Below, in pieces: positions 26,401 through 47,453 of a stretch of 64,000 nucleotides of DNA. The translations under genes and the position numbers were made by a program. The stretch is from Branchiostoma floridae (Eukaryota > Chordata > Leptocardii > Amphioxiformes > Branchiostomatidae), in contig NC_049985.1 of NCBI RefSeq assembly GCF_000003815.2, positions 2,473,639 to 2,537,638 of the forward strand. The letters run 5' to 3'. The notes under the pieces were generated by a model that did no database searches, was not told the origin of the DNA, and saw only the letters and a list, made by a program, of their open reading frames with translations. Each line of letters starts with the position of its first letter. Position 1 is the first letter of the stretch.

Positions 26401-29400
26401 TGTGGCCCAGGGCTACAAAGACAAAGATGGGTACCACCCTATGCCTCATCTGGTGCTGGTAAGCAACAACAGTTGATGTATGTATCTGTGATCTTTTCCA
26501 GTTGCCAGCCAGCGAATGTGGGCCCTGCAGCGTCTGCGGAAGCTTCTCCGATCGGGGATGGGTCCGGTACTGAACGTGGATGCTTTGCTGGGAGAGGGCG
26601 ATGAGGAACAGTCCAGGGTCAGTCTTCTAGGATCTTTTCCTTTTCAACACTGTAGTTTTGTCATGTCAAAAGACTCTTTAAAAAATGGTACATACTTCTT
26701 TCTTTGCCAAGAGGAAGAGTATGGAAGCTAAACACACTACACTACCAGTGGACTCGCCACCTGTAGTGTTTAATAAATGCACCTCAGAAGGTCAGATGTG
26801 ACAGGCTGTTCAGTGTAATATATCCTGAACTGTCATGTGGTGTACCTCAGAAGCTACCGGGGTAGTGTGTTGCACCGAAGGGCAGTTGCGGTATACTGGA
26901 TACACATATACAGACACAGACATACCTCACCTCACCTATCCTATCCCTTGACCTTCTAGTGGGTCGTTGAGGCACCACGACTATTTGCTGCACTATCCTC
27001 CTACATCTGACTCTGTCTTCTGCCGCTCAGATCGCTTCAGCTAGACTTAACACAGGCACAGAAAATTCCTAAAATGACGCAAACAAAAAAAGGACCTTTT
27101 TGAAACTCAACATTGCATGTGCTGACTTCTCTGCATTTTTTACAGGCCAACACAGGGAATAGTTAGTAAATTAGACAGATTTTGCAAACTTAACATTTTG
27201 CTGACTTCTTCGATCTATTTTTCTCTGCAGGCGAACACAGGGACCCTGGCCTCTCTAGTGAAAGGCCTGCCTGAGATGCTGCTGAGGCAGTACGAGTATG
27301 AGGATCCCATCGTCAGGGGAGGCAAACACCTGCTGCACAGTTCCTTCTTCATGGTAACATCTTCGCTTAAACTTTATTGGTCCAAAAGAGACATTGCATT
27401 TACATTTTGCATTATATGTTTTTAATGATGAAAATGTTTTGGTTTGTGTGTGAGTTTTATGGCTTGTTTCTGTACAGTATCCCCCCCCCCAAAAAAATAT
27501 ATGGAGAGATTTAGATGATTTTTAGTAATCGGAGATATAGAGAAGTAGAGAGGGGTACTCTGGCAAAAAGTGAGAATAGACTTAAGGTTGTTGTGGCAGA
27601 TAGCAACACTCTTTATTCACTCACACTCTACCTTTGTCTAGTCCTATATGGTCAGTCTGTTCTAGGTACCGTTCAGCAGCACTACCTTTACATCTACATA
27701 TAAGTGGCGGGGACAGAGTATTGGAACTATGTGCCTATCTACTATGTCATCCTCTGAGCTGAGATGCCTCTATATCCTCCCCTACATATGGTATCAGCCA
27801 AGCTTTATAAGAAACTTCTAGTCTCAGGGGCACTGGTCAGTGGACACATGTTGCAGAAGCATAGATTTGGGAGGTTTCTTGGAAATCCAGCCAGGGTTAA
27901 CATATGGAGTTAACATGTAATATTGCCATACAATACATGCTATACTACAGACTGAGACATATTTGACAAAGAAAGAAAAGAGTTCAATTTCTGACTGAAT
28001 TGCGAACATCCTGCTGTTATGACTTTTTGTTTGCAAAAAGCTCTTGTTCATCTCCCTCCTTTCCTCACACCCCAGGAGCTGGTAGCGCTCGCCTGTGAGC
28101 TGGGGCTGGACTGCCTGCCCTGCTGCTCCGAGACGCACAAGTGGGCGTGGTTCCGGCGCTACTGCATCGCCTCTCGTGTGGCGCAAGCCTTGGAGAGAAG
28201 GGACACCTTCCCACAGGTCAGGAGTGGCATTCATTTCTGTTAAGTACCCTTGTCCTGCTGGTGATTTTTTGGCCAATTTGACTAACTTGACCTGTTCTGT
28301 GTTGCTGCTGCATATTTACTCCCCTATTTGAACCCAAACCGATAAGAATACAGATCAGCATGACAAGGGTTAGATATGTCCATCCCATATATAAACAGGC
28401 TCAGCAGGACAAGGACTTTTTTGTTGTTCAATCTGTAATTCTAAGCTTACTAAAATACATTCTGAATTTCAACAGTTTCATGTTATGAAGTTTAGATTTT
28501 TGGACGGATGCGGTGAAATTTTTGTCCATCTCATAAAGCAAATTTCCTTCCCAGTAAAGAGTGTCCTGGACACAACATACAAAATGTCTTGATGCACTTA
28601 TGAAAGTTAGACGTTAGGGCTATCTCCAGCACCTGTCCCTCCGTCCTGGGACGGAAATTTGCTTGTTGGCTGGAGACAGCTGTTGGCATCCAACCGAGCA
28701 ATTTTTAAGGCAAATCAATCTCTACAACTGGACAACATACCCGTTTAGAAACTTTATTTGAACCGACACACAACAACATGTTTTGCCGTGTGGCTTTCTC
28801 AGTGTTTCAGTGTTATAAAGAAATACATACTGGTAATAGAACCTACTCAATACAATAGGTAAAATAAATAAGGTGGAAAATGGAATTTGCATATCAATGA
28901 TTGATGTCTTTAAGCTCTCTCTAACCTTATGATTTCCCCTCAGCCATTCTTTGACGAGGTGATGAAGAAAGTGAAAGAGATCAGCGGGGACGGGGAGGTC
29001 AATGACCTATCCAGAGAACACGAGGACAACCAGGTGAGTTCCATTCCTCCTTCTACTTTTTCTTGCCATTTTTTGTCTTCGAGTGACTTTAGAATTTGAC
29101 ATTAACTTCTGAACCACAATGTTAACTGGAAAGGGTTGTATTTCTTGGGATGAGATGTGAAGGCATTGTCCACTGGTATGCTATGCACATCACCTTGTCT
29201 CTTTAGATTTACAGACTGAGACAACTTTATTGCACTGTTTGTTATTTCTTGCAATTGTAACAGCAGGTACAATGTATGGCAACTTGTGCATACAAGGCTG
29301 CTGAACTATTGCTAATACCTAACAAATTTAAAGAAATATACTTGTACTGCTGGCAGGGCTCGAAATACTGGGTGCATGTGCACCTAAAATTGGAGCTGTG

Positions 29401-32400
29401 CACCCAATTATTTTCTGTGGGTGCACAGGGTGCACCCAACTATTATCTTGGCTTTATGTATGTAAAGATATCAAAGTGTACTAGTATACATCATATTCTT
29501 AACATCTCCGTGTTAGAAAGATAATAAAAATGTCTGTCATGGTACTTGTTTAAGAATTGATAGCATGTAACTAAGTTTTGTTATTAGATTTTTCTGGCAT
29601 TCTACTCAAATCTAAGTGGTGCACCCAAAATTGTTTTGTTGCACCCAATTTTCTTAGCTGGGTGCACCAGTGCACCTAATCCCCAAAATGAATTTCGAGC
29701 CCCGGCTGGTATAGCATGTGTTCCTGGTGTCATTACGATTGAAGATAAGCTCTTCAGTGACCTGAAACATTTCCATTGTTGTTTCCATGACAAACGTTTT
29801 TATTGTTGTTTCCGTAGTAAAACATTTTCATTGTCGTTTCCATGGCAACCAGGTGTTCCATCAGGAGCACGACGAGCAGCTCCTCCAGTGGCTGAGCCGT
29901 CGCCCGGACGACTGGACGCTGTCCTGGGGTGGCAGCGGGCAGATCTGGGGCTGGGGTCACAACCACAGGGGTCAGCTGGGCGGGGTTGAGGGGGCAAAGG
30001 TCAAACTGCCAACCCCCTGCGATGCCCTGGCGGCCTTGAGGCCGGTACAGCTAATCGGGGGAGAGCAGACACTGTTCGCGGTAACTGCTGATGGAAAGGC
30101 AAGATGATGTCTTCTGTTCTTTAAGCTCAAGGAACATAATATCAGTCTAGATATTAAAAATGATTTTCCTTGGAAGTCAGATACGTAGTAGTCACCTATG
30201 CCGCCACAAGCAAAAAGGTGCCTTGAATTGAACTCTGGACTTTACATTAATACTTGCTAAGTTGTAACATTAAATTTATGTATTTTGTATTGTAGATTTA
30301 TGAGTATTGTTGTTAGGTCCTTTGCATACAGTCATAATTTGTATAAACTGACTGACAGTAGGTAGGTAGTAGATGCATGGTAGTAAAGATGTAATAGCAA
30401 GATCAGGGCAATTCCTATTTGGTTACCTGATACATTTGTGCAAATGTAAGAAAGTGAGCTTAGCAGCTGCGGTGCATACAACTGACTTGTTGCTATTGTG
30501 CAAACTGTGCTGGAATGGGTCTTATCTAGCACCAGGCAGGGAGAGCTTGTGTGCACTTACATGTTCTAACATTTCCCATGCCTTCTGTAGGTGTGTGCCC
30601 CAGGGTATGGCGCAGGAGGAAGACTGGGAATTGGAGGCACCGAGTCCGTGTCCAGCCCTACGCTGCTGGAGTCCATAAACTCTGCTGGAATGGGCCTTAT
30701 CTAACATTAGGCAGGGAGAGGTTGAATGTGTACATTTACACATACTAACATTTCCCATACCTTCTGTAGGTGTATGCCACAGGGTACAGAGCAGGAGGGA
30801 GACTGGGAATCGGAGGCACCGAGTCCATGTCTTGCCCAAACTGCTGGAGTCCATAAACTCTGCTAGAATGAGCCTTATCTAGCACCAGACAGGGAGAGCT
30901 TATGTACACTTACATCTACTAACATTTCCCATACCTTCTGTAGGTGTATGCCACAGGTTATGGCGCAGGAGGGAGACTGGGAATCGGAGGCACGGAGTCA
31001 GTGTCCAGCCCCACACTGCTGGAGTCCATACAGCACGTCCACATCAAGAAGGTGGCAGTGAACTCTGGCGGGAAGCACTGCCTGGCGCTGTCGTCGGAGG
31101 GAGAGGTGTTCTCCTGGGGGGAGGCTGAGGACGGCAAGCTGGGGCATGGCAACAGGAAGTAAGGACATACATACAAGCTACTTCGGTTGATTTTTGAACC
31201 AATTAAACCACCTTTTGATGACTCTTTGAAGTTAGATGCTTCCGAAAACAATTTCTTCACGTTAGTAGAGCATAGGATATTATCCTTATGTTTCGATGCC
31301 TATCACAGTATCAGACATATTCCTCAGCTGCTTCTTGACACACTGTATATGTAGATATGTAGAATTAGATGCTATCACCGTCACATGGAATGGCACATCC
31401 CACCACATACATTTATTATTTCACATTTATACATTTTCATGATCAGCACCAAGGACAGACCACTAAAATTCAGAGACTGTATTTTCTGGCTTCCTTAAAA
31501 CATGCAGAGTAGGGTTTACCTTGAAATAGATTGTAACAAGCCAAAGATAAACCGAGTATCACCATTATACATTGTACCTTTATCTATTTATTAATTGTTT
31601 CATTCACACATACACGGCAATACAATGTACATTGTATCGACAGTACAGGTGTCTACAATAACTACTTAAAAGCAGCACTATCACAGCCTCTCATGGCCTG
31701 CATACAAAATGGCAATACTGACATCAAAACTAGCTCAAAGAGAAGGCTTTGGATTGTGGCAAGAGTTTGATAAATATTTAATGTCTTTCCTAGACACAAG
31801 GAGGCAAGCTGCAAAAGAATGCATCAGCTTTTGCCTCCTGGCGTTGAGTGTGTTATCACCTAGCTGTAAAATCATCATAATGAAAATGCCTGTGATCTAA
31901 CTTTGTTACTGTCCTTCCCCAGCTCCTGCGACCGTCCCCGTGTGATCGAGTCGCTGCGAGGGAAGGAGGTGGTGGACATCGCCGCAGGGGGTGCGCACAG
32001 TGCCTGTATCACCTCCACAGGGGAGCTGTTCACTTGGGGGAAGGGCCGGTATGGTAGACTGGGCCATGGAGACAGCGAGGACCAGATGAAACCAAAACTG
32101 GTAAGAAGTGACATTAAAGAACTGAAAGGATATACTATAGTTAACAATCTTGTTCTTGTTCTTGTGTGGATACTGGGTAACACCCCTTAGTGTTGGGGCA
32201 ATCTACCCAGGGCAATCGATATGGTAGACTGGGCCATGTCAACAGCGAGGACCAGATGAAACCCAAACTGGTAAGAAGTGACATTAGGGCGAACTGAAAG
32301 GATAGTTAACAACTGGGGGAAGGGCCGGTATGGCAGGCTGGGCCATGGCGACAGTGAGGACCAGATGAAACCAAAACTGGTAAGCAAATTCCCTAGCCCG

Positions 32401-35400
32401 ATTGTCCTAGGCAAGTGAAAGTGCCTATTGCACAAGCACATGTCCTACCCCACTTGCACGATTGGTTTTCACGGTGATGACTGTTACATGAACTTGTCCT
32501 TACAGATAACAAATAATTCATCTTGGTGATGAAAACAAATAATTCGTTCACTGTGAACATTTAGTTCCGGGAACAAGTTAGATTTGCTCAGACCGTAAAA
32601 GTTTGGTATCGAAAAGACAAAATGAACAGTACCTTGAAATGAAATCTCTGTGAAAATTTACTCCATTTCTTTCTTTGTCCCAGGTTGAGGCGCTGAAAGG
32701 CGTCAGAGTGATCGACGTGGCGTGCGGCAGCGGGGACGCGCAGACGCTGTGCATCACCGACGACGACTCCGTCTGGTCCTGGGGAGACGGGGACTACGGC
32801 AAGCTGGGAAGGGGCGGCAGCGACGGGTGCAAGATTCCGCAGAAGGTGGAGGCTCTGATCGGTCAAGGCGTGGTCAAGGTCGAGTGCGGGTCGCAGTTCT
32901 CTGTGGCGCTCACCAAGTCCGGATGCGTCTACACATGGTAAGGACATTAATTGGGCAGCTACTTTTTATTTTAGTCAGTTTTACCACATTTGGATGCACT
33001 TCTTTCTCTGATTGGTCAAGGCGTGGTCAAGGTCGAGTGCGGGTCGCAGTTCTCTGTGGCGCTCACCAAGTCCGGATGCGTGTACACATGGTAAGGACCT
33101 TGGGCAGCTATTTTTTATTTTATTCAGTTTTACCACTCACACCGGGAAGGTCCCCAGTCTACTCTTCTAGCTACATTGTATATCTGGATGTATTTCTTTC
33201 TCTAATTGGTCAAGGCGTGGTCAAGGTCGAGTGTGGGTCACAGTCCTCTGTGGCGCTCACCAAGTCCGGATGGGTCTACACATGGTAAGTACACGGTACA
33301 GAAGAATGGATCTCTGTGGCACAATCAGGACCTCAACTGTAAGGTGGTTTTAGCTTGAAATATTGTAATTCAACTTGCAGTATTTCCCTTGTATGTTTCT
33401 ACTTTTGAAGCAGCCCCAGCTTCACTGGTTAGAAAAAAATATGAAGAAATTAGCAGAAGAAGAGCAAGAAGCCTTGAGAAAACAGTATGTTTCCCTTCCC
33501 CCTACATGTATGGGACAGCAAATCTTATGTAAGACACTATTTCACATTCGTGAACAGTTTCATCAGGTTGGTACGTCACTGAATAAAGAGACTCTTTTTA
33601 CACAACCAGTGCTTTATTCTCACCGACGTTTCGGTGACCGTCTGTCACCTTCTTCAGGGCAATTCTGACTGGTTCACATTGTACTGCAGGACAGATGTCG
33701 CTGCTCACAGTTCAGATGCGGTCACAAAACGACAGAAAGGCCCATGGTCTGAAAATGCACTTACTCAGGGAGGACTGAAGATGGACTTACTGTCTAAATT
33801 GATGTAAAGGCCTTACTCTGGATAATAGTCCACCCAAACTAACACCAACTGTTCTCAAACATGTTCTCAACTATAGCAAAATGGGGTGGACTTACTGTGG
33901 GAGTAACTCCCCCTCTGAGACAAGTATGTCCACCTTTAGCCTACAGTCATCCTCTTTGTGTATCATCTTTTACTCCTATGGTTCCTAGCATCTTTTAATC
34001 CTACGTTTTCCCCCCAAGCGAGAGTGTGAATGACTGCGGTGCGAGGGTACAGCCGAGTCCATCGCTGAAATTGTGCACGAACTGCAGAACCGCTCCACTC
34101 CCCTCATGTGCCTCACACCCAAACGTCGCCAGGAGACAGGCGCCACCGGGGACTGCATCACCCTTCAACCCCACCNNNNNNNNNNNNNNNNNNNNNNNNN
34201 NNNNNNNNNNNNNNNNNNNNNNNNNNNNNNNNNNNNNNNNNNNNNNNNNNNNNNNNNNNNNNNNNNNNNNNNNNNAGCAGCGACATCTGTCCTGCAGTAC
34301 AATGTGACCCAGTCAGAATTGCCCTGAAGAAGGAGACAGACGGTCACCGAAACGTCGGTGAGAATAAAGCACAGGTTGTGTAAAAAGAGTCTCTTTATTC
34401 ACTATTTCACATTGTTTTCTTTGACTACAGGGGTAAGGGAGACTACCATCGACTGGGACACGGCTCGGACGATCACGTGAGGAGACCACGTAAGGTAGCG
34501 GCACTTCAGGGAAAAAATGTCATCAGCATCGCCACAGGCTCCCTGCACTGCGTGGCCTGCACAGACCAAGGTAGGACAAGAATAATTCTAGTAGGGAGGG
34601 GGTAACACCGTAACAGTATAGGCTCAAGTAGCATACATGTTCGTATAGTCTAGTTGTGAGTAACCTTGTCTCTTGGCCAAAAAGCCTTGAGTTCAAATCC
34701 TAGATGTTTTGCTCACCCAACATGCACACTACTGGAAAAGGTTGCAGTCAATAGGCGGACATTAAGATATGGTCCTCTGTTCAGATGAATTTTTCCAGGA
34801 TAAGTAACCTGTAAATACATGTACTGTACTTTGCACCACTCTTCTCTCTGACACAACAATGGTGTAAATCAGGCAGTACTTTCTTAGCTCACTTCCTCTA
34901 CAGTTGTAAGTTTGAGTGAACAACACATGAGACCTATCTACATGTAGTATTGTATGCACAACAAGTTACATTGAATTATTTTGTGTTTGGCTTCGGAGCC
35001 TATGCAATTTTTTTGTTTCTCTTCTTCTCAAATTATGTCTGACATTTATTTCAAGAAGACCAAGGTAGGAGGCATGTTAATTTTTACTGATTGCCTTTTC
35101 CTTTTCTATGCATATGATTAGGTAATGATTGATTGATATGCGATGTTAAATTTTTAGGTTGATGCAAGCAAATCACCAGCAAGGCTCAGAGTTTTTAATG
35201 TGCAAATTAGGTCCTGCTGACATGTTCTGTACAGTACCTGTGTCCTGACCAGGTGTGTTACCTGTCCACAGGTGAGGTGTTCACCTGGGGGGACAATGAC
35301 GAGGGACAGCTGGGAGACGGGTCCACTAGCGCCATCCCTCGGCCCAGGCTAGTGGCTGCACTCCAGGGTAAGTATTCTGTTATTGCTTCCTTAGGCCACA

Positions 35401-38400
35401 TTCAATTTGTTGGTTCTCGTTCTGATTTTTTAAAGATAATGCCGAATATGAATAAATTATCAACATGAAAACAGGGTCTAGTTATGAGGGGAAAGTGTGG
35501 GCCTTGGTACACAAAGTTTTTTGGGAGCTAATATAGTCAGATGTAAGTTTTCCTCTAAGCCCTGTCTTTTTTTCATCTTGTCTGCTTGGTGAGTTTTTAC
35601 CAAAAAATAGGGAAAACGATAAACACAGCCTTGCCTGGTTCACCTCCAAGCCCTTCCTACTATATATGTTATATAATCCCCATGTCGCCGGTGTATTTTT
35701 TCATACGACCCTTGTCCTTATTGACGTGTGATTGAATACTTTTTCTCTTTAATGCAGGGGAAAAGATCAACATGTTGCTCTGCCCACAGCCATGCCTGGT
35801 CCACCTCCAAACCCTTTCTACCATAATCTCCCATGTTGCCAGTGTGTCTTTTAACACCACCCTTGTTCTTAGGGACATGTGATTGCATTTTTTTTTTTTG
35901 ATAATGCAGGGAAAAAGATCAACAGAGTGGCATGTGGCTCTGCCCACAGCCTTGCCTGGTCCACCTCCAAGCCTGTGAACGCCGGCAAGCTGCCGGTCCA
36001 GGTCCCTATGGAGTACAACCACCTGCAGAACATCACCATGCCGGTCCTACGAAACCGCCTGGTCCTTTTACACCACTTCTCCGACCTCTTCTGCCCGTCC
36101 ATCCCCATGTTCGACCTCCTGAGGGGGAAGCTGGCGGACGAGAACGGGAGCAAGCCTCTGGTTTGATTTCATTGATTTTATATATTTATTTTGCACATTT
36201 TAAAAAGACAATATAAAGCAGATTAAAGAAAGCAAGAAAACAGAAGAAAAAGCCATGTGGCTTACATGTATGCATGCATGCTCTTCCCCCGTCAAAATTT
36301 AAAAATCATAATACAATTTAACAACTTATAAAGTAGTAAAGATGGAACAGATAAGAAAATAATACATTAAACAATGATATAACCCAGTGCATTATACCAA
36401 TTAATACGGAATGGAACGAAATAAAAATGGTTCAATAATTGATAACTAAGCAAATATCAGTAGATAAATAGAAATTTAACATCTTGCGAAATGTAACAAC
36501 TTAACAAGCAAGCAAAATGTACAAATAGAAAAACAATGAGTAGGAGATTAATTAAATGTTTGGTTGTGTTATTGTGTTATGGGGTGGGCCGACTATTCAT
36601 TCTTTGCAGCCAGGGGCTGAATTGCGAGGAGCTTACAATAGGCGGGGCTAAATCACAAGGGTCTGGAGGGAGCTGCCATTCAGCGCCACTCTGGTGACCT
36701 CAATACGACAGTAATTGCCCCAGGTGCAGCCAAGGTACTGTAGGTTTTTGAACCACTCACACCGCACCATCACACATGTGGCGGGTTCTTTAACGTGCCT
36801 GGGTTATGGCTCTCCCCAGACACGGGACCTCCATTTTATGTCCTATCCGAGATTGTCTAATAGTGACTTTTTTACCAGGTGGGGCTGGACACGCTGCGGG
36901 GGGTCCTGGTGTCGTCCGGGAAGGAGGCGGCGTTCAGGAAGGTGGTTCAGGCCACCATGGTGCGGGACCGCCAGCACGGACCAGTCATAGAGCTGAACAG
37001 GATACAGGTGGGTGCGGACTTCTTTAGGTTAGTTTTGGGTTCCAAGTACAGTCAAACCTGTCCAAGGACACCACTCGGGACCAATAAAATCACATCTATG
37101 TAGAAATGTGGTCACTACAGACAGCATTATGAATGCTTGTGTCAATGGGAAAAATTATCTAAGGGATCACCAAAAAGTGCTCACATTAGCCAATTGATCC
37201 CAAAGGTTTGACTTTAGGTTTCTATCGAAAGGAATAGGAATAGGATTTTTTTCCATTTGAACCAGTCATAGACCTCAACAAGATACAAGTGGGTACAGTT
37301 TTGGTCAGATTCCTGTTTGGATCTTTGAACCTGAAATCTTTTACCTCCGTGACAAATTAAGGTATTGTTTTCGGTATGTCTGTTGGTATGTTTGTGTTTT
37401 GGAGCACGGACCGGTCATAGAGCTGAACAGGATACAGGTGGGTGCAGTCCTCTTTAGGGTAGTTTTTGTTAATATACAATGTACTTCAAATATGTTTCTA
37501 TTGAAAAGAATAGCATCAGGGATTCAAATTTTCCAATGGCATAGCAGGTACATTGAATAAAACTAGCAGCTGTAAAGCAGCCTAAGTACCATCCTCTATA
37601 TTTAGTGACCTCTGGCTCAATCCTTCCACTTGCTAACAAAGGATTGATCCAGCGGTCACAATGGAGAATGGTACTCATCAGGCTAACTGTAAAGTACAGA
37701 GATTTGAAGAAAACCTCTCAAGTCATATCAATTCATCTGGCCTACGCTAATAGAAAGATTTGAAACCAAACTGCTTCCCCATATGGAAAAAGTCACCCAG
37801 TGACGCAAAGAATTAGAATATGTATCATTATTTGGGTTGCACTTGCTTGCGATTGAACCAGTTTGAAAGAAATGTCATCACTTTTTTTATTGTCTCCTTG
37901 CAGGTGAAGCGCTCGAGGAGTAAAGGCGGTCTGGCCGGTCCTGACGGGATCAAGTCTGTGTTCGGCCAGATGTGCTCCAAGATGGCGTCCTTCACGCCGG
38001 ACAGTCTGCTGCTGCCCCACAGGGTCTGGAAGGTCAAGTTCATAGGTAGGTCAACTTAATACAAAGGTGAAGTACATTAGGTAGTTGAAGTTCTTCTATG
38101 AATAGTTTCATCAGGTTGGTACGTCACTGAATAAAAAGTCTCTTTTTTTACACAACCATTGCTTTATTCTCACCGATGTTTCAGTGACCATCTGTTACTT
38201 TCTTCAGGGTAATTGTGACCCTTGCAAACCTTGGACTTATGAAAGACTTACCATGGACCATAGTCCTCTTTTCACTGACAGTAAGTCCCATGGTCTGAAA
38301 ATGGACTTACTCAGGGAGGACTGAAGATGGACTTACTGTCTAAATTGATGTAAAGGCCTTACTCTGGATAATAGTCCACCCAAACTAACACCAACTGTTC

Positions 38401-41400
38401 TCAAACATGTTCTCAACTATAGCAAAATGGGGTGGACTTACTGTGGGAGTAACTCCCCCTCTGAGACAAGTATGTCCACCTTTAGCCTACAGTCATCCTC
38501 TTTGTGTATCATCTTTTACTCCTATGTTTTCTATCATCTTTTAATCCTATGTTTTCCCCCCAGGAGAGAGTGTGGATGACTGCGGGGGAGGGTACAGCGA
38601 GTCCATCGCTGAGATGTGCGACGAACTGCAGAACGGCTCCACTCCCCTCATGTGCCTCACACCCAACGGTCGCGAGGAGTCAGGCGCCAACCGGGACTGC
38701 TTCATCCTCAACCCACACGCTAAGGGACCCACGCACATGAACATGTTCAGGTTCCTAGGTAAGACACAAAACCCACGCCTAACACCCATGCACAACCCAC
38801 ACGCCAGGGGACACATGAACATGTGCAGGTTCCTAGGTAAGACACAATACCCAAGCACAACACCCATGCACATGAACATGTTTAGTTGCCTTGGTAAGAC
38901 ACAAAACCCATGCTAAGGGACCCACGCACATGAACATGTTCAGGTTCTTAGGTAAGTCACAACACCCATCCTCAACCCACACGCCAAGGGACCCACGCAC
39001 ATGAACATGTTCAGATTCCTAGGTAAGACACAACACCCACGCACATGAACATGTTCAGGTTCCTAGGTAAGACAACACCCACGCACATGAACATGTTCAG
39101 GTACCTAGGTAAGACACAACACCCATGCACATGAACATGTTCAGGTTCCTAGGTAAGACATAGCACCCACGCACAACACCCATCCTCAACCCACACGCCA
39201 GGGGACCCACGCACATGAACATGTTCAGATTCCTAGGTAAGACTCTGCTTCCTATGTGCCTTGGACAATCCTGTTGCTTTCTGTCTGTCAGGAATTTTCA
39301 GTTGTAAAGAAGTGACCCATTTCCCCCAGCCACATGACTTTACCCACTACTTCATTTTTTTTTTTTTAGTTTTGAAGGACTATTGACTTTGCCCTAATGA
39401 AGGCAGCTGATGAGAAGTTGCCAAAATGTTGGTAGAGGTAAAATAAAGTTTGTGTACCTAAGAAAGCTATGTTGAATTGATTTACCAGCCTGACGAATTA
39501 TTTGCTGATCAGGTTCACCTGACAGGGAACAACAGACAATAAGCGAGATAGTGAGTATGAGTTCTAATGTGTTGTCTGCCGCAGGTATCCTAATGGGGAT
39601 AGCCATCCGTACCGGCAGCCCTCTCAGCCTGAACCTGGCGGAGCCGGTGTGGAAACAGCTGGCAGGGATGCCGCTCACCGTCACCGACCTGACTGAGATA
39701 GACAAGGACTATGTGCCAGGTAAGGAAAGAGTTTGCAGGACAGAAAGGGAAACTGCCAACTACATGATTGTATAGTTCCTTACACCCCACTTGAACAAGG
39801 ACACTCATGATCAAGCATCCATATTCACGTTCCTACCAGAAGACTAGGTTCAAATCCTATCATGCTACTGATCTTGTGCTCTTAGCACTTTACAAGACCG
39901 GTCAGGATACCCTGAAGAGGGTTTTGACCAGTACTGATAAAGATAGATAGATAGATAGACATACATCACTCCACCTATTTGTTAAAAAATGGGTAGCTGA
40001 CTTCGTTTGGGAGGTATAGGATGGTCAAACAAGAGGGATGGTTTCCGCCTTTCAATACCACGCCCTAGACATGGTGGATAACAACCCAATACCTTCAGAC
40101 TCTCCAAAAGTTATGACACCACCTTTTCATGTATGTTTACCTTCTCTCTCCCCGGGACTGATGTACATGTATATCCGAGACGTGAAAAGGACAGCGAGGC
40201 GTTTGAGAACCCCCTATGGTTAAATTGCTGTTACCTTCCACCTCCCCCCAGGGCTGATGTATATCCGAGACATGGAGAAGGACAGCGAGGCGTTTGAGAA
40301 CCCCCCTGGTTTACATGCACCTTTACCTTTTATCTTCTACACCCCCCACCCCCCTCCAGGTCTGATGTATATCGGAGACATGGAGAAGGACAGCGAGGCG
40401 TTTGACAACCCCCCTGGGTTGCTGACGGTTAACATTGTTATTTATCTCCAGGGCTGATGTACATTTGCCCTCTTAGCTCTTGAGAAGCTTGTGAGGCATT
40501 TGAGAGCCCCCCTTGGGTAATTGAAGGTCAATGTTATACATATTGTACTTGTCTCCAGGGCTGATGTACATCCGAGACATGGAGAAGGACAGCGAGGCGT
40601 TTGACAACCCCCCCATGCCCTTCAGCACGTCCAGCGCGTCAGGCGACGAGGTGAAGCTGAGCCCGAAGTACTCCACCATCACCCCCGACAACCGACAGGA
40701 GTACGTACGGCTGGCGCTCAACTACAGGTCTGTGGGAGCATTTCTTTGTTTCAGTCTTCAGCTTACCTTTTTTCATGATCAGGCAACACCAAGTTATCCT
40801 TGTGGTTCCAGGACATTTCTTAGCACAAATTCAACAATCAGTCAAGATGACAACAAATGGTCAAGAGGAAAACTTGAATCTGGTTATACTCACCCTGATA
40901 CTGTATATACTTAGGTACAAATGTATCCCTCAGAGTCTATTTTCATGTGGATTTTGCAGTTACTTATCATCTTTGTAAAACTGAAACCCAACAAATTTAA
41001 TTCTTGTGGCCTTAAGGAACCTGCCTCTTGACTTCGTAGAAGGAGTTGAGTTTGAATCTTGACTCTTGATGTTGACTAATTGTATGCCACAGGAAACAAT
41101 TGCAGTCTTTAGGATAAAATGATTTGGACTTCTGTCTGTTCATTTGTTGCAAAAAGAGGAGAAATTTCCCTTGAAATCCAAGCAAGATGTACTGAACATT
41201 AGAAGAACCAGTGGAAGACAGACCCTTTGGTAAGGTCAGCTGGATCAGGAAAAAATGCAATTTTGTTTTTCAGACTGCATGAGTTTGAGCAGCAGGTGGC
41301 AGCTGTGAGGGAGGGCATGGCCAGAGTCATCCCTGTCCCCCTCCTCTCGCTCTTCACTGGGTACGAGCTGGAGACTATGGTAAGTACCTGTCACCATGGT

Positions 41401-44136
41401 TACCTGTTACTGTGGCAACCTGTCACCTTGTCAACATGTTGCCGTGACAACCTATCATCCCCATTTCCCTCCTCTTGCTCTTCACTTGTTATGAGCTGGA
41501 AACAATGGGCACCATGGTAACCTGACACCATGGTAACATGAGTGTCATCCCTGTCACCCAGTTCTCTCTTTCTTCACAATATCTGATTAAGTAAACATTT
41601 AGTTTCTTAGTAAATAAAATTTAACTTTGACTTAAGTGCTGAAGGCTTTAGTTTAGTGTAAGGTGTAGGTTTGAATTAAATGTTTTGTCCCACTCCCAGG
41701 AACGTGGCAGCTCCGACATCCCACTGTACAACCTGAAATCTGTGGTGACGTACAAGGGGACCGACGCTTACTACAGTCAGAAATGTATATGAATGAGAAA
41801 TATATAAACCATAGAACACTTGAGCTAACTATAAACGATGAATCCACTCCCAGGTTTGTGGCAGCCCTGACATCCCGCTGTACAACCTGAAGTCGGTGGC
41901 GACCTACAAGGGGATCGACGCCAACGCGCCGCTGGTCAGGTGGTTCTGGGAGGTCATGGAAGAGTTCTCCAATCAGGAGCGCTCGCTCTTCCTCCGCTTT
42001 GTCTGGGGACGGACGCGCCTGCCCAGGACGATCGCCGACTTCAGGGGCCGAGACTTTGTGCTTCAGGTAGGAATTATGGGCTGCAAGACGCTGGTCACTT
42101 TAAATTGGGAAGTGCAGTTTTCAGATTTCGAGGTGGCCATGTTGGAAATGCAATGTTTCAAATTTTTTCTCTTGTCTTTCACCCTGGTACTGCAGCAGAA
42201 CTTGCGTTTTTTGTATCTTTTTACCGGAACTGCTGTGGTCTTTATTTTTTTGTGGCAGACAGCTTGTGATGTGAGGAAGAAGTGCCACTGGTGGATGTTT
42301 GGTTCTCCTAGCAGCTTGTTTTGGAACTGCGGGAGTGTTTTTCTCAAAATCATTCAAAGAAAGGATGGATTTTCATGACATCTTTTATGATCTTTTGTTT
42401 GCTTTTGCCCCCAGGTTCTAGATAAGTACAACCCACCTGACCACTTCCTGCCGGAGTCCTACACCTGCTTCTTCCTACTGAAGATGCCCAGATACTCCTG
42501 CAAGCCTGTGCTCAGGGAGAAACTAAAGTACGTATAACTATAACTATAACACACTTACACACACACACTTGTGCACACACACGCATACATACACATTAAC
42601 ACAAACACACACACACAGATACTCCTGCAAGCCTGTGCTCAGGGAGAAACTAAAGTACGTACAACAGACGCACGCACGGACGTGCATGTGCACGTATTCA
42701 CACAGACACACACACACACACAAACACACACACAGATACTCCTGCAAGCCTGTGCTCAGGGAGAAGCTAAAGTACGTATAACACACTTACACACGCACAC
42801 GTGTGCACACACGCACGCACGCACACACAGATACACAGATACTCCTGCAAGCCTGTGCTCAGGGAGAAACTAAAGTATGTATGCCCCCTTCTACACACAG
42901 ACATTCACACTCACACACACACACATACATACGAGGGGCGTTCAATAAGTAATGCCCCAGACCCATTTCCCATAGCAGGAGATTAATGAAACTTCGCACA
43001 GTTATTAGTCTTTCTCTTCATAGGAACCACCCAGAGTTATGCATTTCTTCCATCGTTTGATGCAGCTCTGGACACCGTTTTTATAGAAGACCCCAGGTTG
43101 GTCCTCCAACTGATGCCTCATCAATGGCAGAAGAGGGACGACCAGGTCTGGGAGCTGTTTCCACAGACTTACGGCCATGTTTAAATTCACGATACCAGCA
43201 TTTTACAAGGTCATATGATGGGGCATCATCACCATAAGTTTCTTTCATTTCATCAAAAGTCTTCTTTGGTTTGCGTCAGTTCAAATACAAAAAGCGGATC
43301 ACTGCGCGACACTCAACTGGCTCCATTTCACACCTGTTCCATTTCACACCTGACTCTGTTCAAACAACAGTACATCAGAAACCTCAGTTAGTTCAGAGCT
43401 GTTTTTTGCAACAAGTAATTCATAGAGATATAAATCATTACACATGCAAAATTTCATTAAGATCAAACAACTGGAAATGAGTCAGGGGCATAACTTATTG
43501 AACGCCCCTCGTACATACAGACATCAGACATACACGCACACACACACAGATACTCCTGCAAGTCTGTGCTCGGGGGGAAACTAAATTATGTACAACACAT
43601 GCACACAGACAGGCACACACACATGCACGCACGCACACACACACACACACACAGATACTCACAGACACACACACAGATACTGCAAGCCTGTGCTCATCGA
43701 GAAACTCAAGTACGTACAACAGACACACACACAGATACTCCTACAAGCCTGTGATCATGGAGAAACTAAAGTATGTACAACAGACATACACAAACACACA
43801 CATACGCATACTTGTCAAAAAGTTAGTCTATAGGCAATTTCCCAGTTACTGTCAATATGTTATCATATACATGTAGCAAGTCGTAGATCACCTTTAAAGT
43901 AAGCTAAAATTTGATTCCATGAATTGATTCAATAAAGATAGCTTTCCTCACAGATTGTTCTCCTTCCCTGCAGATATGCCATACACTTCTGCAAGTCCAT
44001 CGACACCGATGACTACGCTCGCATCGCTCTAACTGGGGAGACCGTCGCCGAGGAAACAAGTGAGGAGTCGGAAGACGACGATATGGACAGCATCGACTCT
44101 GATTCCGAACCTGTTGAGTCCTCTGAAGACGAATAA
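523..44136 (+). CDS. HERC2: HERC2 E3 ubiquitin-protein ligase, 3' portion (33 coding exons)
   Basis: Joined exons: 523-666, 1218-1308, 1648-1825, 1962-2215, 19724-19868, 20185-20410, 21138-21303, 21569-21809, 22305-22496, 22918-23071, 24068-24175, 24869-25008, 25557-25707, 26502-26617, 27231-27353, 28076-28216, 28944-29033, 29853-30098, 30944-31158, 31923-32100, 32684-32937, 34431-34570, 35272-35367, 35910-36160, 36879-37007, 37904-38045, 38564-38758, 39585-39719, 40559-40727, 41274-41379, 41854-42066, 42415-42527, 43974-44136. Every junction has an AG acceptor and a GT donor, except a GC donor at 30099. The total is 5405 nt: two bases completing a split codon, then 1801 codons including the stop, so the frame holds throughout. 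The product follows vertebrate HERC2 from RLD2 to the C terminus, with about 73 residues after the catalytic Cys, as in human. The family is a giant ligase acting in DNA repair, centrosome and trafficking pathways. The N-terminal RLD1, cytochrome b5-like, MIB, ZZ and DOC domains are upstream of the window. Confidence 0.96.
2216..3050. repeat. Start of the 17.5-kb intron: SINE-type sequence
   Basis: Around 2280-2450 the reverse complement reads like a tRNA-derived SINE head, with an A-box-like TGGCCTAGTGGTT and a B-box-like GAGTTTGATCCC. A second SINE-type piece lies around 2790-3000, with the short motif CCTTCCGAAAGACG shared by both. I see no coding sequence here. Confidence 0.4.
4660..4905 (-). 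promoter_or_regulatory. Receptor-upstream block, copy without an adjacent receptor
   Basis: This stretch matches the sequence immediately upstream of both receptor genes (markers TGGGTGTCCATCAT, CTCAGTCTAACA, CAAGAATTTTCT, AACTGCTTCA). The expected receptor to its left (3.05-4.6 kb) is absent and I see no receptor remnants there. It may be an old promoter or exon 1 relic. The promoter role is an inference. Confidence 0.45.
7255..7655. repeat. Minisatellite 3' of receptor copy 1 (about 6 units)
   Basis: Units of about 60-80 bp repeat with the core GGATTGGTACAACAAGCC, then CTACCTCTGCCCATTG, a reverse-complementary ATGGGCA, and an A/T-rich (AAAT)n spacer. TGCCCAT and ATGGGCA within each unit can form a small hairpin. 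Apparent reading frames across it are repeat translation. Confidence 0.85.
7896..9275 (-). CDS. Rhodopsin-class-like GPCR, copy 1 (intronless, nested in HERC2 intron)
   Basis: The gene encodes 459 residues from the Met at 9275. I chose this start because the acidic MEEE(T/S)DGPS N terminus is shared with the second copy; a Met 12 codons upstream is also open. Seven hydrophobic segments are visible. Class A landmarks include NLAVDD in TM2, a Cys at about residue 98 before TM3 with a partner Cys in loop 2 (about 171), a PLHY motif after TM3, and NPIIY at about 287-291 followed by a basic helix-8-like RLPKFRRAF. The DRY motif reads DLY (about 122-124) and TM6 lacks CWxP. The roughly 150-residue tail is rich in Pro, Thr and acidic residues. 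It is transcribed antisense to HERC2. I cannot name a ligand or subfamily. Melanocortin/EDG-like receptors share NPIIY but have the Arg, so this may be a lineage-specific orphan. Confidence 0.88.
   Translation of the reverse strand: MEEETDGPSDEDDINRVLSLGSTSRTLQVTYLIISLVLSVGCGLLLIFVVWKKGYLHKPSNYLRCNLAVDDIIFTSCLIPIRVYALLQQDVGGEHLWCKARLLVGPPCVLSMCGTFVMMAVDLYHFMCNPLHYHDKVTTKWVVAGILTVRAYSLFVGIASVAFGGKNSLTCEWEPVSSVTFTSILRSINFLVCSLATLFIAMLYCLVFKEARRQQERDENRNLLVFQTKAFKLMVTHAIVLTVSAVTVGFQVAIGRALISKEDISPSMIIAEHVSILLYLTLSSMANPIIYSFRLPKFRRAFKELCGFPTNTPLAVPPARQYQDMEMATISSPGQGTYTPASELTPAQTPVGSPMPTLKGAQVDMRLELASCTDNHGHQTASEGPFKIKVRAEVHAEPTPRSREDIMEALSEQLHLDEESSDVPTSMLDTKTDEATVGNTLDALALENPLWCQRRKSQP
9395..9625 (-). 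promoter_or_regulatory. Upstream block of receptor copy 1
   Basis: The block sits 120-350 bases upstream of the receptor start at 9275. It is conserved with 4660-4905, 11435-11665 and 15830-16050. The placement fits a promoter or 5' UTR, but I see no decisive core promoter motif. Confidence 0.45.
9728..9951 (+). mobile_element. Poly(A)-tailed retro-insertion with 12-bp target duplication
   Basis: AACTTTCTGATT occurs at 9716-9727 and again at 9952-9963. The segment between ends with AATAAA (9932-9937) and an A run. The equivalent site in unit 2 (around 17925/18440) lacks this segment, which supports an insertion. It may be a LINE 3' end or a processed transcript. Confidence 0.7.
10560..10960. 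repeat. GTACC-rich simple repeat region
   Basis: This stretch has repeated CTGTACC units and related GGTACCGGTA-like pieces. A similar composition recurs at 59810-60290. No gene is visible. Confidence 0.4.
11435..11665 (-). promoter_or_regulatory. Receptor-upstream block, second orphan copy
   Basis: This block has the same markers as the copy at 4660-4905 and occupies the equivalent position in the second duplication unit. No receptor lies to its left. Confidence 0.45.
12890..13835. repeat. Minisatellite 3' of receptor copy 2 (about 14 units)
   Basis: This is the same unit as at 7255-7655, expanded to about fourteen copies. Several units in the middle (13380-13620) are almost identical, which suggests recent expansion. 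Long open frames on the - strand reading LLYQSYN are repeat translation, not genes. Confidence 0.87.
13913..14055. repeat. Short tandem repeat of ~22 bp in receptor copy 2 3' flank
   Basis: About six units of TAGTTCTGTTCCTAAATCTT type lie just beyond the receptor stop codon. Copy 1 has about three at 7755-7830. Confidence 0.75.
14108..15715 (-). CDS. Rhodopsin-class-like GPCR, copy 2 (intronless, longer tail)
   Basis: The gene encodes 535 residues from the Met at 15715, matching copy 1. The frame stays open a further 89 codons upstream, but that stretch resembles the untranslated flank of copy 1. The transmembrane core aligns with copy 1 without large gaps: NLAVDD, DLY at 122-124, PLHYHDK and NPILY. 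The same DRY arginine and CWxP are missing, so the change predates the duplication. The cytoplasmic tail contains two tandem copies of a unit of about 60 residues (starting [10 protein letters not shown], with PTPRS and LHLDEES inside) where copy 1 has one. This accounts for most of the extra length. It is a nested antisense gene in the large HERC2 intron. Its function is unknown. Confidence 0.88.
   Translation of the reverse strand: MEEESDGPSEEDDINRVLSLGSTSQTLQVTYFIISLVLSVGFGLLLIFVVWKKRYLHKPSHYLRCNLAVDDIIFTSCLIPIRIYALLQQDVSSARLWCTARSLVGLPCLASMVGTYLMMATDLYHFVCNPLHYHDKVTTKRVVAGILTIRAYTLFFGIAFVAFDGLPKYSVSCELESVSFTDIFKAINFSVIILATLFIQVLYYLVFKEARRQQERDENHKLWVFQTKAFKLMLPHLMVWTVAAVTVGFQVAMKQALISKDHMIIANQMSTLLYLTVSSMANPILYSFRLPEFRRAFKQLCGLPTNTPPAVPARRHRDVEMPAITGPGQDAPASELTPAQTPVEILMTLPKDPPSDQAQKQTTTADMSPGLAPRTENHGHKTASGQPFKITVQAEVHAKPTPRSREVIMETLPGQLHLDEESLDVPTSVLDTETNAATGRHGHKTASGQPYKMTVLAEVHAEPTPRSSDKDIREALPEQLHLDEESSDIPTLDTDTDEATVGHTMDALALENPPGHPKIAWQEDTSQRTKRKPRI
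15830..16050 (-). promoter_or_regulatory. Upstream block of receptor copy 2
   Basis: The block lies 115-335 bases upstream of the receptor start at 15715 and matches the copy at 9395-9625. Its distal end is broken by the inserted element that begins at 16071. Confidence 0.45.
16071..17814. mobile_element. Insertion (~1.75 kb) with terminal hairpin and tRNA-like core
   Basis: The left end is a 34-nt hairpin (16071-16104; arms ATTACCTTGTCG and CGACAAGGTAAT, inner GC pairs, TTGC loop). The right end has the inverted CCCGACAAGGTA at about 17803-17814. In duplication unit 1 the sequence runs straight from GTTTTTATT into CCATTGAGGACAGG. In unit 2 the same two stretches are split at 16070 and about 17832, which shows an insertion. 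Inside are TGCATGCA (16118-16125), a pol III A-box/B-box pair followed by T12 (16755-16840), and a perfect inverted repeat of GTGTCAATAGCCTG type at 17608-17665. I see no transposase. The family is unknown to me. Confidence 0.65.
16748..16840 (+). other. tRNA-like sequence with pol III boxes and poly-T
   Basis: The A-box-like TAGCGTAGTGGA (16755-16766) and B-box GGTTCGAGTCC (16809-16819) are spaced as in tRNA genes and are followed by a T run. The T-arm does not pair properly, so this is better read as a tRNA-derived SINE head or pol III relic than as a working tRNA. Confidence 0.4.
17926..18437 (+). mobile_element. tRNA-derived SINE inserted in duplication unit 2
   Basis: The head carries TGGCGTAATCGGC (A box, 17939-17951) and GGGTTCAACTCC (B box, 17982-17993). 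The body contains GGGAAAGGCACTTTACAC, typical of metazoan tRNA SINEs, and GTTAAAGAACCCACCACA. The flanking ATTCTGAG/ATTCTGAT continues the sequence found intact in unit 1. Confidence 0.65.
19112..19345 (-). mobile_element. tRNA-derived SINE, - strand
   Basis: In reverse complement, TGGCCAAGTGGGTAGAG (A box) is followed by GAGCTTGATCCCC (B box), then a body with a GCCACTACAGCAGG-type motif. Related pieces with that motif occur around 18780-18945, 22555-22640, 26330-26440 and 26630-26790. Confidence 0.6.
19515..19650 (-). mobile_element. 3' end of a non-LTR retrotransposon (5'-truncated)
   Basis: The sequence is the reverse complement of the last part of the element at 23705-24037, sharing the GGTGCCATTAATGATGTCC and CATGCATCTCTGTC motifs and the (CTGAA)n tail. 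Confidence 0.6.
20892..21073. mobile_element. MITE with TACAGTCAA termini
   Basis: The termini TACAGTCAAGCCTGT and ACAGGTTTGACTGTA are inverted repeats, with internal repeats of GGCCACTATRGACAGG. Related CAGTCAAACCTGT sequences recur at about 37047, 45297, 45600 and 49850-50300. Confidence 0.65.
21138..29033 (+). CDS. HERC2: HERC2 inter-propeller linker exons
   Basis: Eleven exons (21138-21303 to 28944-29033) encode roughly residues 346-887 of the fragment. The first part (21138-22496) includes a Ser/Glu/Pro-rich, low-complexity, probably disordered stretch (about 21590-21800) between conserved helical pieces ([21 protein letters not shown]-like; [12 protein letters not shown]-like). The stretch 24068-25008 encodes the strongly conserved [13 protein letters not shown] and [16 protein letters not shown] motifs known from the same place in vertebrate HERC2. 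Later exons carry the conserved [25 protein letters not shown] and [12 protein letters not shown] motifs. I know of no enzymatic role for this part. It may be a scaffold between the propellers. Confidence 0.93.
21962..22167. mobile_element. Fold-back MITE
   Basis: The left arm AGTTCACCTTTATTCGCAGG is the near reverse complement of the right arm ending GCTAATAAAGGTGAACT; the arms extend to about 40 bp. A diverged partial relative lies at 20440-20790. Confidence 0.7.
23705..24037 (+). mobile_element. 3' end of a non-LTR retrotransposon
   Basis: The + strand carries the broken C-terminal end of a reverse-transcriptase ORF. Translated fragments include [29 protein letters not shown], and [10 protein letters not shown] just before a stop. 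It finishes in a (CTGAA)n tail. Stop codons interrupt it, so it is dead. Confidence 0.6.
24536..24746. mobile_element. MITE with TACTGTAATTC termini
   Basis: TACTGTAATTC at the left and GAATTACAGTA at the right are inverted repeats. A diverged relative occupies 32455-32640 (shared GATAACAAATAATTC and AAAGTTTGGTA). Confidence 0.6.
29354..29704. mobile_element. hAT-type MITE
   Basis: The termini CAGGGCTCGAAAT and ATTTCGAGCCCCG are of hAT type. The interior has inverted GGTGCA-rich arms. A short GCTGG on both sides may be the remains of the target duplication. Confidence 0.65.
29853..36160 (+). CDS. HERC2: HERC2 RLD3 propeller exons
   Basis: Seven exons (29853-30098, 30944-31158, 31923-32100, 32684-32937, 34431-34570, 35272-35367, 35910-36160) encode the third RCC1-like propeller. 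Visible blade motifs include [66 protein letters not shown] and [12 protein letters not shown]. The intron after 30098 has a GC donor (AAG|GCAAGA). The donor after 36160 is weak (CTG|GTTTGA), though the frame and homology support it. Several of these exons have tandem partial copies beside them, annotated separately. Confidence 0.94.
30500..30943 (+). repeat. Echo array at acceptor of HERC2 exon 30944-31158
   Basis: About 175-bp units made of intron plus the first ~85 bases of the exon repeat before the true exon. Acceptors sit at 30590/30591 and 30769/30770, ahead of the real 30943/30944. The first copy reads in frame through [20 protein letters not shown], then reaches a stop without a donor. 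The exon-like parts differ by scattered substitutions. Confidence 0.85.
32101..32400 (+). repeat. Echo array at donor of HERC2 exon 31923-32100
   Basis: Two further copies of the exon end (TGGGCCATG..GATGAAACC..AAACTGGTAAG) lie at about 32218-32277 and 32323-32385. Each keeps the GTAAG donor. Confidence 0.85.
32938..33295 (+). repeat. Echo array at donor of HERC2 exon 32684-32937
   Basis: Two further copies of the last ~85 exon bases (GGTCAAGGCGTGGTCAAGG to ACACATGGTAAG) lie at about 33007-33095 and 33207-33290, each with an intact donor. They are open in the exon frame. Confidence 0.87.
33553..33710 (-). mobile_element. Penelope/hammerhead-like repeat fragment
   Basis: In reverse complement it contains CTGAAGA, a 6-bp stem GGTGAC/GTCACC, then GAAAC. 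These are the order and spacing of a minimal hammerhead core, as described for Penelope-like retroelements. The expected GUH cleavage triplet reads GTG, so self-cleavage is unlikely. An opposite-strand copy lies at 34276-34411 on the far side of the gap. Confidence 0.45.
34176..34275. other. Assembly gap (100 N)
   Basis: Exactly 100 Ns, the usual placeholder for a gap of unknown size. It lies between two facing copies of the same repeat. Confidence 0.99.
34276..34411 (+). mobile_element. Inverted copy of the hammerhead-like repeat after the gap
   Basis: The sequence is nearly the reverse complement of 33555-33704, with CTGAAGAAGG, CACCGAAACGTCGGTG and AAAGAGTCTCTTTATTCA. The two copies face each other across the displaced exon copy and the N gap. 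Confidence 0.6.
35610..35909 (+). repeat. Echo copies at acceptor of HERC2 exon 35910-36160
   Basis: Exon-start-like sequence (GGGGAAAAGATCAACATG and a CTCTGCCCACAGCC piece followed by GCCTGGTCCACCTCCAA) occurs at about 35757-35820. A shorter trace lies at 35617-35660, and each is followed by a repeated CCCATGTYGCCRGTGT intron piece. Confidence 0.75.
36879..44136 (+). CDS. HERC2: HERC2 C-terminal exons with complete HECT domain
   Basis: The first two exons (36879-37007, 37904-38045) lead into the domain, and the HECT exons run 38564-38758, 39585-39719, 40559-40727, 41274-41379, 41854-42066, 42415-42527 and 43974-44136. Recognisable HECT signatures are [20 protein letters not shown] (N-lobe), [31 protein letters not shown] and [16 protein letters not shown]. 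The last contains the catalytic cysteine that forms the ubiquitin thioester (codon 42466-42468). The protein ends in a Ser/Asp/Glu-rich acidic tail and TAA at 44134. All key residues are present, so the ligase should be active. The split codon at 42527/43974 (AA+A) restores the Lys-Tyr of the [11 protein letters not shown] motif. Confidence 0.95.
37020..37450 (+). repeat. Echo copies at donor of HERC2 exon 36879-37007
   Basis: ACCAGTCATAGACCTCAACA at 37261 and GACCGGTCATAGAGCTGAAC at 37409, each followed by AGATACA/GGATACA and GTGGGT, repeat the exon end and donor. Confidence 0.75.
38759..39245 (+). repeat. Nine-donor echo array at HERC2 exon 38564-38758
   Basis: The exon end (ACGCACATGAACATGTTCAG, then GTTCCTAGGTAAG) recurs about eight more times after the true donor, at roughly 38829, 38885, 38945, 39015, 39058, 39100, 39145 and 39228. 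Nearly all keep AG|GTAAG. Confidence 0.85.
39840..39962 (+). mobile_element. tRNA-derived SINE 3' part with (GATA)n tail
   Basis: GGTTCAAATCC resembles a B box and is followed by a short body and AAAGATAGATAGATAGATAG. The tail and the GTTTTRACCAGTAC motif recur at 53030-53090. Confidence 0.5.
40150..40558 (+). repeat. Five-acceptor echo array at HERC2 exon 40559-40727
   Basis: Four copies of the exon start (GGCTGATGTAYATCCGAGAC, then AAGGACAGCGAGGCGTTTGA) precede the true exon. They begin near 40153, 40252, 40360 and 40452 and most have a pyrimidine tract and AG. Their phase equals that of the true exon. Reading on from any of them meets a stop before a usable donor. Confidence 0.87.
41380..41530 (+). 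repeat. Echo copy at donor of HERC2 exon 41274-41379
   Basis: CTCTTGCTCTTCACTTG, ATGAGCTGGAAACAATGG at 41470-41508 repeats the exon end. GGTAACCTG-type short repeats surround it. Confidence 0.75.
41697..41800 (+). repeat. Echo copy of HERC2 exon 41854-42066 start
   Basis: An acceptor (CCACTCCCAG) precedes about 70 bases that read [18 protein letters not shown] in the right phase, then a stop. Most differences from the true exon are synonymous third-position changes. Confidence 0.8.
42528..43780 (+). repeat. Seven-donor echo array at HERC2 exon 42415-42527, within (AC)n
   Basis: After the true exon end, six more copies of GATACTCCTGCAAGCCTGTG...AAACTAAAGTAYGTA start near 42618, 42735, 42838, 43549, 43676 and 43734, separated by (AC)n. 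A mariner-type element splits the array. Confidence 0.87.
42932..43511 (-). mobile_element. Internally deleted mariner-type transposon
   Basis: The termini CGAGGGGCGTTCAATAAGT and ACTTATTGAACGCCCCTCG are inverted repeats flanked by TA on both sides. The - strand encodes remains of a mariner transposase: a helix-turn-helix end ([20 protein letters not shown]) joined directly to the C-terminal [16 protein letters not shown] region. The catalytic centre is deleted, so it cannot move on its own. Confidence 0.85.
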
Positions 44137-45240
44137 GCCTCCTCCCTGCACCCTCATTTGTGTAGTGGTACCACCCAGATGTCTGTCAGTTCAGTCTGGT
44201 ATAGGCTCATCCATTTTGCTAATAGGGGAGTTTAAAGCAGTATACTCCTCTGAAGACACACAAGTCTGGAATTTCCAGACAACCCCCCATCTGTGCATTG
44301 GTATCACCCAGACATTTGTCAATGCATTTCTGTAATGTGTATAGGACTCATCCATTTAATGAATATAGGGGAATTCAAAGCATTTGACTCCTCTGAAGAC
44401 ACACAAGTCTGAAGTTTTTTCAGAGCATCCCCATCTGTGTAGTGGTATCACCCAGACATGTGGGAGTACATTTCTGTATAGGATTCTTCCATTTCATTCA
44501 TAGGGGAGAAAATGCCAGTAGTACATACTAGTCTAAGTCTTCTCAGAAATTAGTTTAAGAGAAAGCAATGCTGTATCTTGTACATTGAAAATCTTTTTTT
44601 CGTTTATGAGCTAATAAGTAAGGTGATGCTTATATGTGGGATTGTGTATAGAATTAGGAGAAATCATGAGAAAAAGAATTCCAACCTTCTTTACTTAATC
44701 CTGTGGCTGTTAAGTTATAGCTTTTTTTTACTGCAGTTCAGAAAGCCGGAAACAATACCAGTATTTTGTGCAGAGTGGTGCAGTATGAAATGTTGCATGA
44801 TGGTCTACAAAATGTCTGAAAAGTGGACTCCTTTTTTCATATTGAAATTATTAATAGTAGAGATTGGGCAAAGAAGATCTAGGTGGAAAAAAAATTAAAA
44901 AATATTGTCAGATTTATGAAGAAGTGAAAACAAAGAGATATTAAAAGTTAAAGCATTAAGTATATAGTAAGAAAAGAGGACCGGACAGTGAAAAGAATTC
45001 TGTATGATATAAAAGAATATAAGTTGCAACAAATGGCAATACTTTGACTAGAATGCAGTTATGTATAGATGAACTGCGGGGTTGCGATATGGTGAATCGT
45101 AAGGCAAGGGGATATGACCACAATGATACGTGATACAGAATACAAATGTATGTTCCCTGCCCATTCTTGGTTTGTCACCAGTGGAAGATGGTGTGCATCG
45201 TGTTAACATCATTAAAGAACAGACAAACTAGACTGGGATC
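44137..45240 (+). other. HERC2 3' UTR region with echoed stop-codon segment
   Basis: Three units of about 130-165 bp follow from the last codons (TCCTCTGAAGACGAATAAG). The second and third begin CTCCTCTGAAGACACACAAG at about 44247 and 44389. From about 44570 to 45240 the sequence resembles the 3' flank of the zinc-finger gene at 47.4 kb (compare 49060-49790). ATTAAA at 45211 is a possible poly(A) signal, also present in the related flank at 49757. Confidence 0.55.
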
Positions 45241-47238: not shown

Positions 47239-47453
47239 TATAGAGATGTAGTAGATGCCTTTATGTTGGTCTAACCTAGCTGTAGAAGTCTCTGTTCATC
47301 TCTCCAGGTAGCAAAATCTTTATTATGTGTTGCAAAGTTGCATTATATTGGCTAATATACATAAAAGGACAAAAAAGGTAATTGCAACAATACTGTTCTA
47401 ACTGGTTGTGATTGATTTGTAAAATAATGTTCTTTCAGATAAGTGATCAGGGT

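Follow-up and report, generated by a model that had tools for sequence, protein, structure and literature searches.

Tandem copies spanning exon edges in the 3′ half of an amphioxus HERC2 gene resemble mirage minisatellites

Results and Discussion

HERC2 gene in the window

The window, a stretch of 64,000 nucleotides of the Branchiostoma floridae genome, contains the C-terminal part of HERC2 on the + strand (523..44136), comprising 33 exons that encode the region from RLD2 to HECT plus the stop codon. The exons at 523-29033 and 29853-44136 are termed r1-r17 and A-P, respectively. When joined, the 33 exons form a single open frame of 1800 residues with the sole stop at its end; note that the donor of r14 was chosen by the open-frame criterion from three candidate ends tried. 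The translation of exons A-P matched HERC2 RLD3 in PDB (3kci_A, E = 3.7e-227), and its last third matched HECT ligases. Pfam RCC1 or HECT was found in eight of the nine pieces scanned, the ninth (exon L) giving no Pfam match. The introns in the A-P half are 348-1493 nt in length, and the donor of exon A at 30098 seems to be GC. In the r4-r5 intron of 17.5 kb, two minisatellites (7255-7653 and 12890-13828) share similar consensus units of ~65-80 bp, and a 5S rRNA match (Rfam RF00001, 54.6 bits) lies on the - strand at 2887-3005, which, judging from this match, may be a 5S-derived SINE.

Tandem copies at exon edges

Both ends of each of the 33 exons (66 in total, the stop serving as the final one) were screened with 60-nt windows, each compared with its flanks of ±1.5 kb and with 60 first-order Markov shuffles per flank as a control, and an end was flagged when the score was >8 above the shuffle maximum. 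Fourteen of the 66 ends were flagged. At 12 of them, tandem copies run across the exon-intron boundary, and such copies are termed echoes below; at the other two, the acceptors of exons A and J, the copies are intron-only. The 12 ends are the acceptors of r14 and r15 and the ten edges of the original prediction, which scored 46-96 against shuffle maxima of 21-30. The tandem arrays at the predicted places were also seen by self-BLAST and Tandem Repeats Finder (TRF); the copy at the donor of exon M falls under the self-BLAST cut-off and is shown by the edge-window screen and alignment. All ten predicted positions coincide exactly with splice edges of the gene model, and thus ten of the sixteen exons A-P do carry copies of an edge, both 5′ and 3′ boundaries being involved (four acceptors and six donors).

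The arrays, all on the + strand, differ in unit and copy number. At the acceptor of exon B (30502..31030; true acceptor 30944), a unit of ~175 bp is present in three copies, with echo acceptors at 30591 and 30770. The array of exon G (35624..35973; true acceptor 35910) has an echo at 35758, that of exon L (40137..40613; true acceptor 40559) has echoes at 40252 and 40360 together with an exon-only fragment at 40167, and that of exon N (41690..41921; true acceptor 41854) has an echo at 41700. Among the donors, echoes lie after 32270 and 32379 in exon C (32035..32384; true donor after 32100), after 33090 and 33284 in exon D (32853..33293; true donor after 32937), and after 37288 and 37437 in exon H (36973..37466; true donor after 37007). 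Four edge-spanning echoes were aligned in exon J (38703..39243; true donor after 38758; TRF units of 44-86 bp), while exon M (41327..41558; true donor after 41379) is accompanied by an echo that lacks GT and is identical at 79 of 97 aligned bases. The donor array of exon O (42482..43815; true donor after 42527) comprises six aligned echoes amid CA repeats. It is split by a transposon-like, possibly mariner-like insert (42930-43513) with 69-nt inverted ends (81% complementary); the array thus probably predates the insert. The donor of exon I bears a possible tiny echo (23/28 bases) and was left out of the counts.

An array at the stop codon and 3′ UTR (44108..44507), which had also been predicted, consists of three copies of ~133-143 bp, the first of which enters the last coding bases. 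It is plain in self-BLAST from 44148 on (E = 2.7e-33 for 44151-44372), although the stop end was unflagged in the shuffle-controlled screen (29 vs 25). The extension to 44108, which lies 29 bases short of where the stop codon ends, is from alignments made without a shuffle control (102/132 identical bases between 44108-44239 and 44235-44382; 113/136 between 44227-44372 and 44370-44507).

The RLD2 half, for which no copies had been predicted, turned out to carry weaker ones. At the acceptor of r14 (26282..26522; true acceptor 26502), an echo at 26300 is identical at 56 of 68 bases (score 40 vs a shuffle maximum of 28), and a weak echo at the acceptor of r15 (27122..27243; true acceptor 27231) is identical at 58 of 75 bases (33 vs 21). 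The acceptor of r3 (1442..1671; true acceptor 1648) probably carries an echo as well, as judged from 52 identical bases of 73, with a score under the flag threshold (32 vs 24). Even so, the affected edges are denser in the A-P half (10/31 splice edges) than in r1-r17 (2/34, or 3/34 with r3; Fisher p = 0.009 or 0.029, respectively).

Excess of arrays at exon edges

Whether so many arrays at edges exceed chance was examined against a null in which segments of unit length were placed randomly on the gene, with any that fell within an exon or enclosed one entirely excluded; the chance of spanning an edge was then 0.10-0.31 per array. With clusters picked by hand from self-BLAST and treated as independent, each of the nine clusters located in introns of the A-P half spans an edge (p = 2.3e-6); M is absent from these nine, the 3′ UTR array is excluded, and O is counted once. 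When the three intron-only clusters of the r6-r7 intron were added, nine of the 12 span an edge against 2.7 expected (p = 1.3e-4). For the unit lengths, the 430 of H was set to 200, and J was taken as 135. The test leaves out the arrays of the 17.5-kb intron, the match between exons r2 and r4 (1230/2023), the 20529/21955 match (offset 1426), and the short TRF arrays under the BLAST cut-off; thus, intron-only short arrays such as 29765-29848, 38507-38556, and 43322-43352 stand outside the count. For arrays above the BLAST cut-off, edges are favoured ~threefold beyond placement and purging. With nine seen and 2.7 predicted, part of the bias to edges lies beyond what survival would give.

Divergence and codon pattern of the echoes

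Thirteen edges (the ten predicted ones plus r3, r14, and r15) were queried for copies, and 25 copies scored ≥34, of which 23 include the edge. At this threshold, r3 and r15 yielded no copies and M yielded one exon-only fragment. In the 23 edge-bearing copies, the exonic parts are 92.8% identical to the true sequence (967/1042) and the intronic parts 86.3% (943/1093), the intronic difference of the echoes being 12-14%. By eye, echoes farther from the exon were not steadily more decayed, with O as a possible exception. The arrays of r14, B, C, D, G, H, J, L, N, and O contain 2, 3, 3, 3, 2, 3, 5, 3, 2, and 6 distinct versions, respectively.

The analyses of codon pattern omit r3 and r15, and M enters only the relic-model test described below. 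The exonic differences at codon positions 1, 2, and 3 number 14, 12, and 49. When only distinct events are counted, third positions account for 43 of 68, against 23.8 expected from a base- and CpG-matched shuffle, whose highest value in 20000 rounds was 42. At sites where another echo has the base of the exon, 31 of 50 differences are at third positions (18.9 expected, p = 0.00025); nested duplication times could be behind part of this excess. A model in which both copies are neutral was rejected (p = 3.5e-7). We considered the third-position excess as proof of constraint on echoes, but this argument is weakened, since some of the excess is to be expected whenever a slowly changing exon is paired with a neutral echo. 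With such a relic model, 34 of 78 events are nonsynonymous against 43.1 expected (p = 0.026, ranging 0.007-0.086 when any one of the eleven arrays is dropped), and the strict version of the model is only mildly rejected. Gaps number four in exonic and 50 in intronic parts (p = 1.2e-5), or three and 19 without O and J (p = 0.006). As low-complexity sequence raises indels in introns, both the gap contrast and the relic test are suggestive only. The predominance of third-position differences hints that the units may recently have been true exon edges, although the codon pattern is only suggestive in this respect.

Splice sites carried by the echoes

The original prediction held that the copies carry spare acceptors and donors, and this is borne out: GT or AG is kept in 22 of the 23 edge-bearing echoes, or in 22 of 24 when the echo of M, in which GT is lost, is added. 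The echoes of r3 and r15 also keep AG but, being under the threshold, are outside the former count. By a matrix made of this gene's own sites, 17 of the 23 echo sites score either above the true site or at most 2 below it, and six are more than 2 lower. In 22 of the 23 cases, an exon extended to the echo site would run into a stop, the exception being the echo of J after 38893 (135 nt), which stays in frame without a stop. The open frame across the 33 exons fits the use of the inner sites.

Comparison with mirages and other known systems

The original prediction regarded repeats anchored on splice junctions as no known feature, but repeats of this kind, called mirages, are described for a few lancelet genes (PMC3087553; PMC3902484). 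In amphioxus, they occur in Adh3, the globins BflGb6 and BflGb9, and PGBD5 (PMC3087553; PMC3902484), and the latter report names Adh and TnC alongside PGBD5. The published units are 150-160 and 157 bp in the globins, 10-72 bp in Adh3, and 60 and 108 bp in PGBD5 (PMC3087553; PMC3902484), where the splice sites are covered by 2 x 60 bp and 3 x 108 bp repeats (PMC3902484). The splicing of Adh3 and the globins is apparently regular (PMC3087553; PMC3902484).

The HERC2 arrays share with mirages the tandem boundary-spanning copies at both 5′ and 3′ boundaries, overlapping unit lengths, and AG or GT in many but not all of the units. They differ in density, as ten of sixteen exons in one half and the stop region are affected here, whereas the globins and PGBD5 have one or two boundaries per gene as far as the cited portions describe them. 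Altogether, we regard the HERC2 arrays as a further, dense case of a peculiarity already known, not as a new kind; on those descriptions, they are denser than the globin and PGBD5 mirages. Our literature search for Branchiostoma, HERC2, and tandem repeat found no paper, and no genome-wide survey of mirage-like repeats was among the literature matches listed. The striking pattern is thereby placed in a known but little-studied class of repeats. The edge excess, the codon-position pattern, and the number of versions are tests usable genome-wide, which could show how such repeats arise, why splicing ignores them, and whether they change introns.

Two further systems are comparable. In amphioxus VCBP3, introns contain complete or partial exons resembling the adjacent exons, some with canonical splice sites (PMC2632668); unlike in HERC2, the data are not shown there, and tandem boundary repeats are undescribed in the part of that paper on these introns. 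Intron gain by tandem genomic duplication likewise involves a duplicated segment with splice signals, but no new intron is seen in HERC2, and the echoes sit within existing introns. Exons r3 and C are both 178 nt and exons r4 and D both 254 nt (RLD2 and RLD3, respectively), which speaks against a new-intron origin for two introns: those following C and D seem to predate the echoes inside them.

Origin of the arrays

The units are tandem, imperfect, and edge-spanning, with splice sites largely intact on the intron side. We consider it probable (roughly 80%) that the arrays are mirage minisatellites, that is, real tandem duplications with units mostly of ~60-200 bp across an exon edge and mostly silent echoes. 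Enlargement of introns by tandem duplication, one of the explanations originally offered, is supported. We propose that duplications would arise at many places and that selection would remove those inside exons or containing a whole exon. Edge-spanning duplications would survive if, by exon definition, the two splice sites nearest each other on either side of an exon are paired: splicing would then take the true inner site and leave the spare outer ones silent. Where introns are long, splicing favours the pair of sites with the shortest distance over the exon (PMC9225289), a rule that we assume to apply to this animal, whose A-P introns may count as long. Arrays might then grow, shrink, and swap units via unequal exchange or gene conversion. 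Survival does not fully account for the edge excess over random placement.

The arrays could instead be fragments of the other haplotype set beside exons by the assembler. The third-position share of the differences (49/75) is allele-like, and the assembly does hold one likely duplicate error: ~33776-34175, which adjoins an N run (34176-34275), copies ~38322-38738 (most of exon J and the intron preceding it), with ~200 identical bases followed by error-like changes towards the gap, and looks like an assembly duplicate. Published discrepancies point the same way, as one mirage was misassembled in the draft (PMC3087553) and the copy number in PGBD5 differs between two assemblies (PMC3902484), and so the copy numbers given here may be off. 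Joined haplotype fragments, however, would show at most two versions per site, and they fit poorly with seven of the ten arrays, whose shared columns hold between three and six distinct versions, more than the two alleles of one animal would yield; this argument assumes a single animal, and a pooled sample could differ. In addition, the echoes are short, in register, and tandem, their intronic divergence exceeds the 4.39% SNP rate given for a lancelet diploid (PMC4284660), and the PGBD5 repeats were upheld by re-examined Sanger and new Illumina data (PMC3902484). An assembly origin is thus improbable.

It is hardly probable, too, that the echo sites constitute a splicing-control device, acting as decoys or alternative exon ends. 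The canonical dinucleotides, the site scores close to or above those of the true sites, and the one echo of J that would extend its exon in frame are what such a device would offer, but young copies would also have near-intact sites. Nearly all extensions introduce a stop, the echoes occur at unrelated exons with differing units, and for published mirages no effect on regular splicing is reported (PMC3087553); a control device is not needed. The enrichment at edges would be consistent with slippage or duplication that starts from the splice-site sequences, but the alignments terminate at scattered points in the introns and 13-87 bp inside the exons, away from the splice sites, and the four junctions inspected by eye share no motif, which makes this origin very improbable.

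Within the preferred reading of the arrays as mirage minisatellites, we tentatively raise a further idea, which is doubtful at present: the arrays may act as conveyor belts, in which unequal exchange between highly polymorphic alleles shuttles units back and forth between the working edge and the silent echoes. If true, selection would clean units while they are at the working edge, and the echoes would store recently functional exon ends that can be returned. This would explain the codon-like pattern and few indels in the exonic pieces of echoes, as well as the intact spare splice sites and the outlasting of other arrays by those at edges.

Other repeats in the window

Downstream of HERC2, three C2H2 zinc-finger open frames (47412-48398, 53320-54321, and 58595-59275) contain tandem units of 84/168 bp. 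An N run (51773-51872) is flanked by tandem arrays with units of 20/42 bp at 51077-51205 and 51878-52020, which by eye are the reverse complement of one another.
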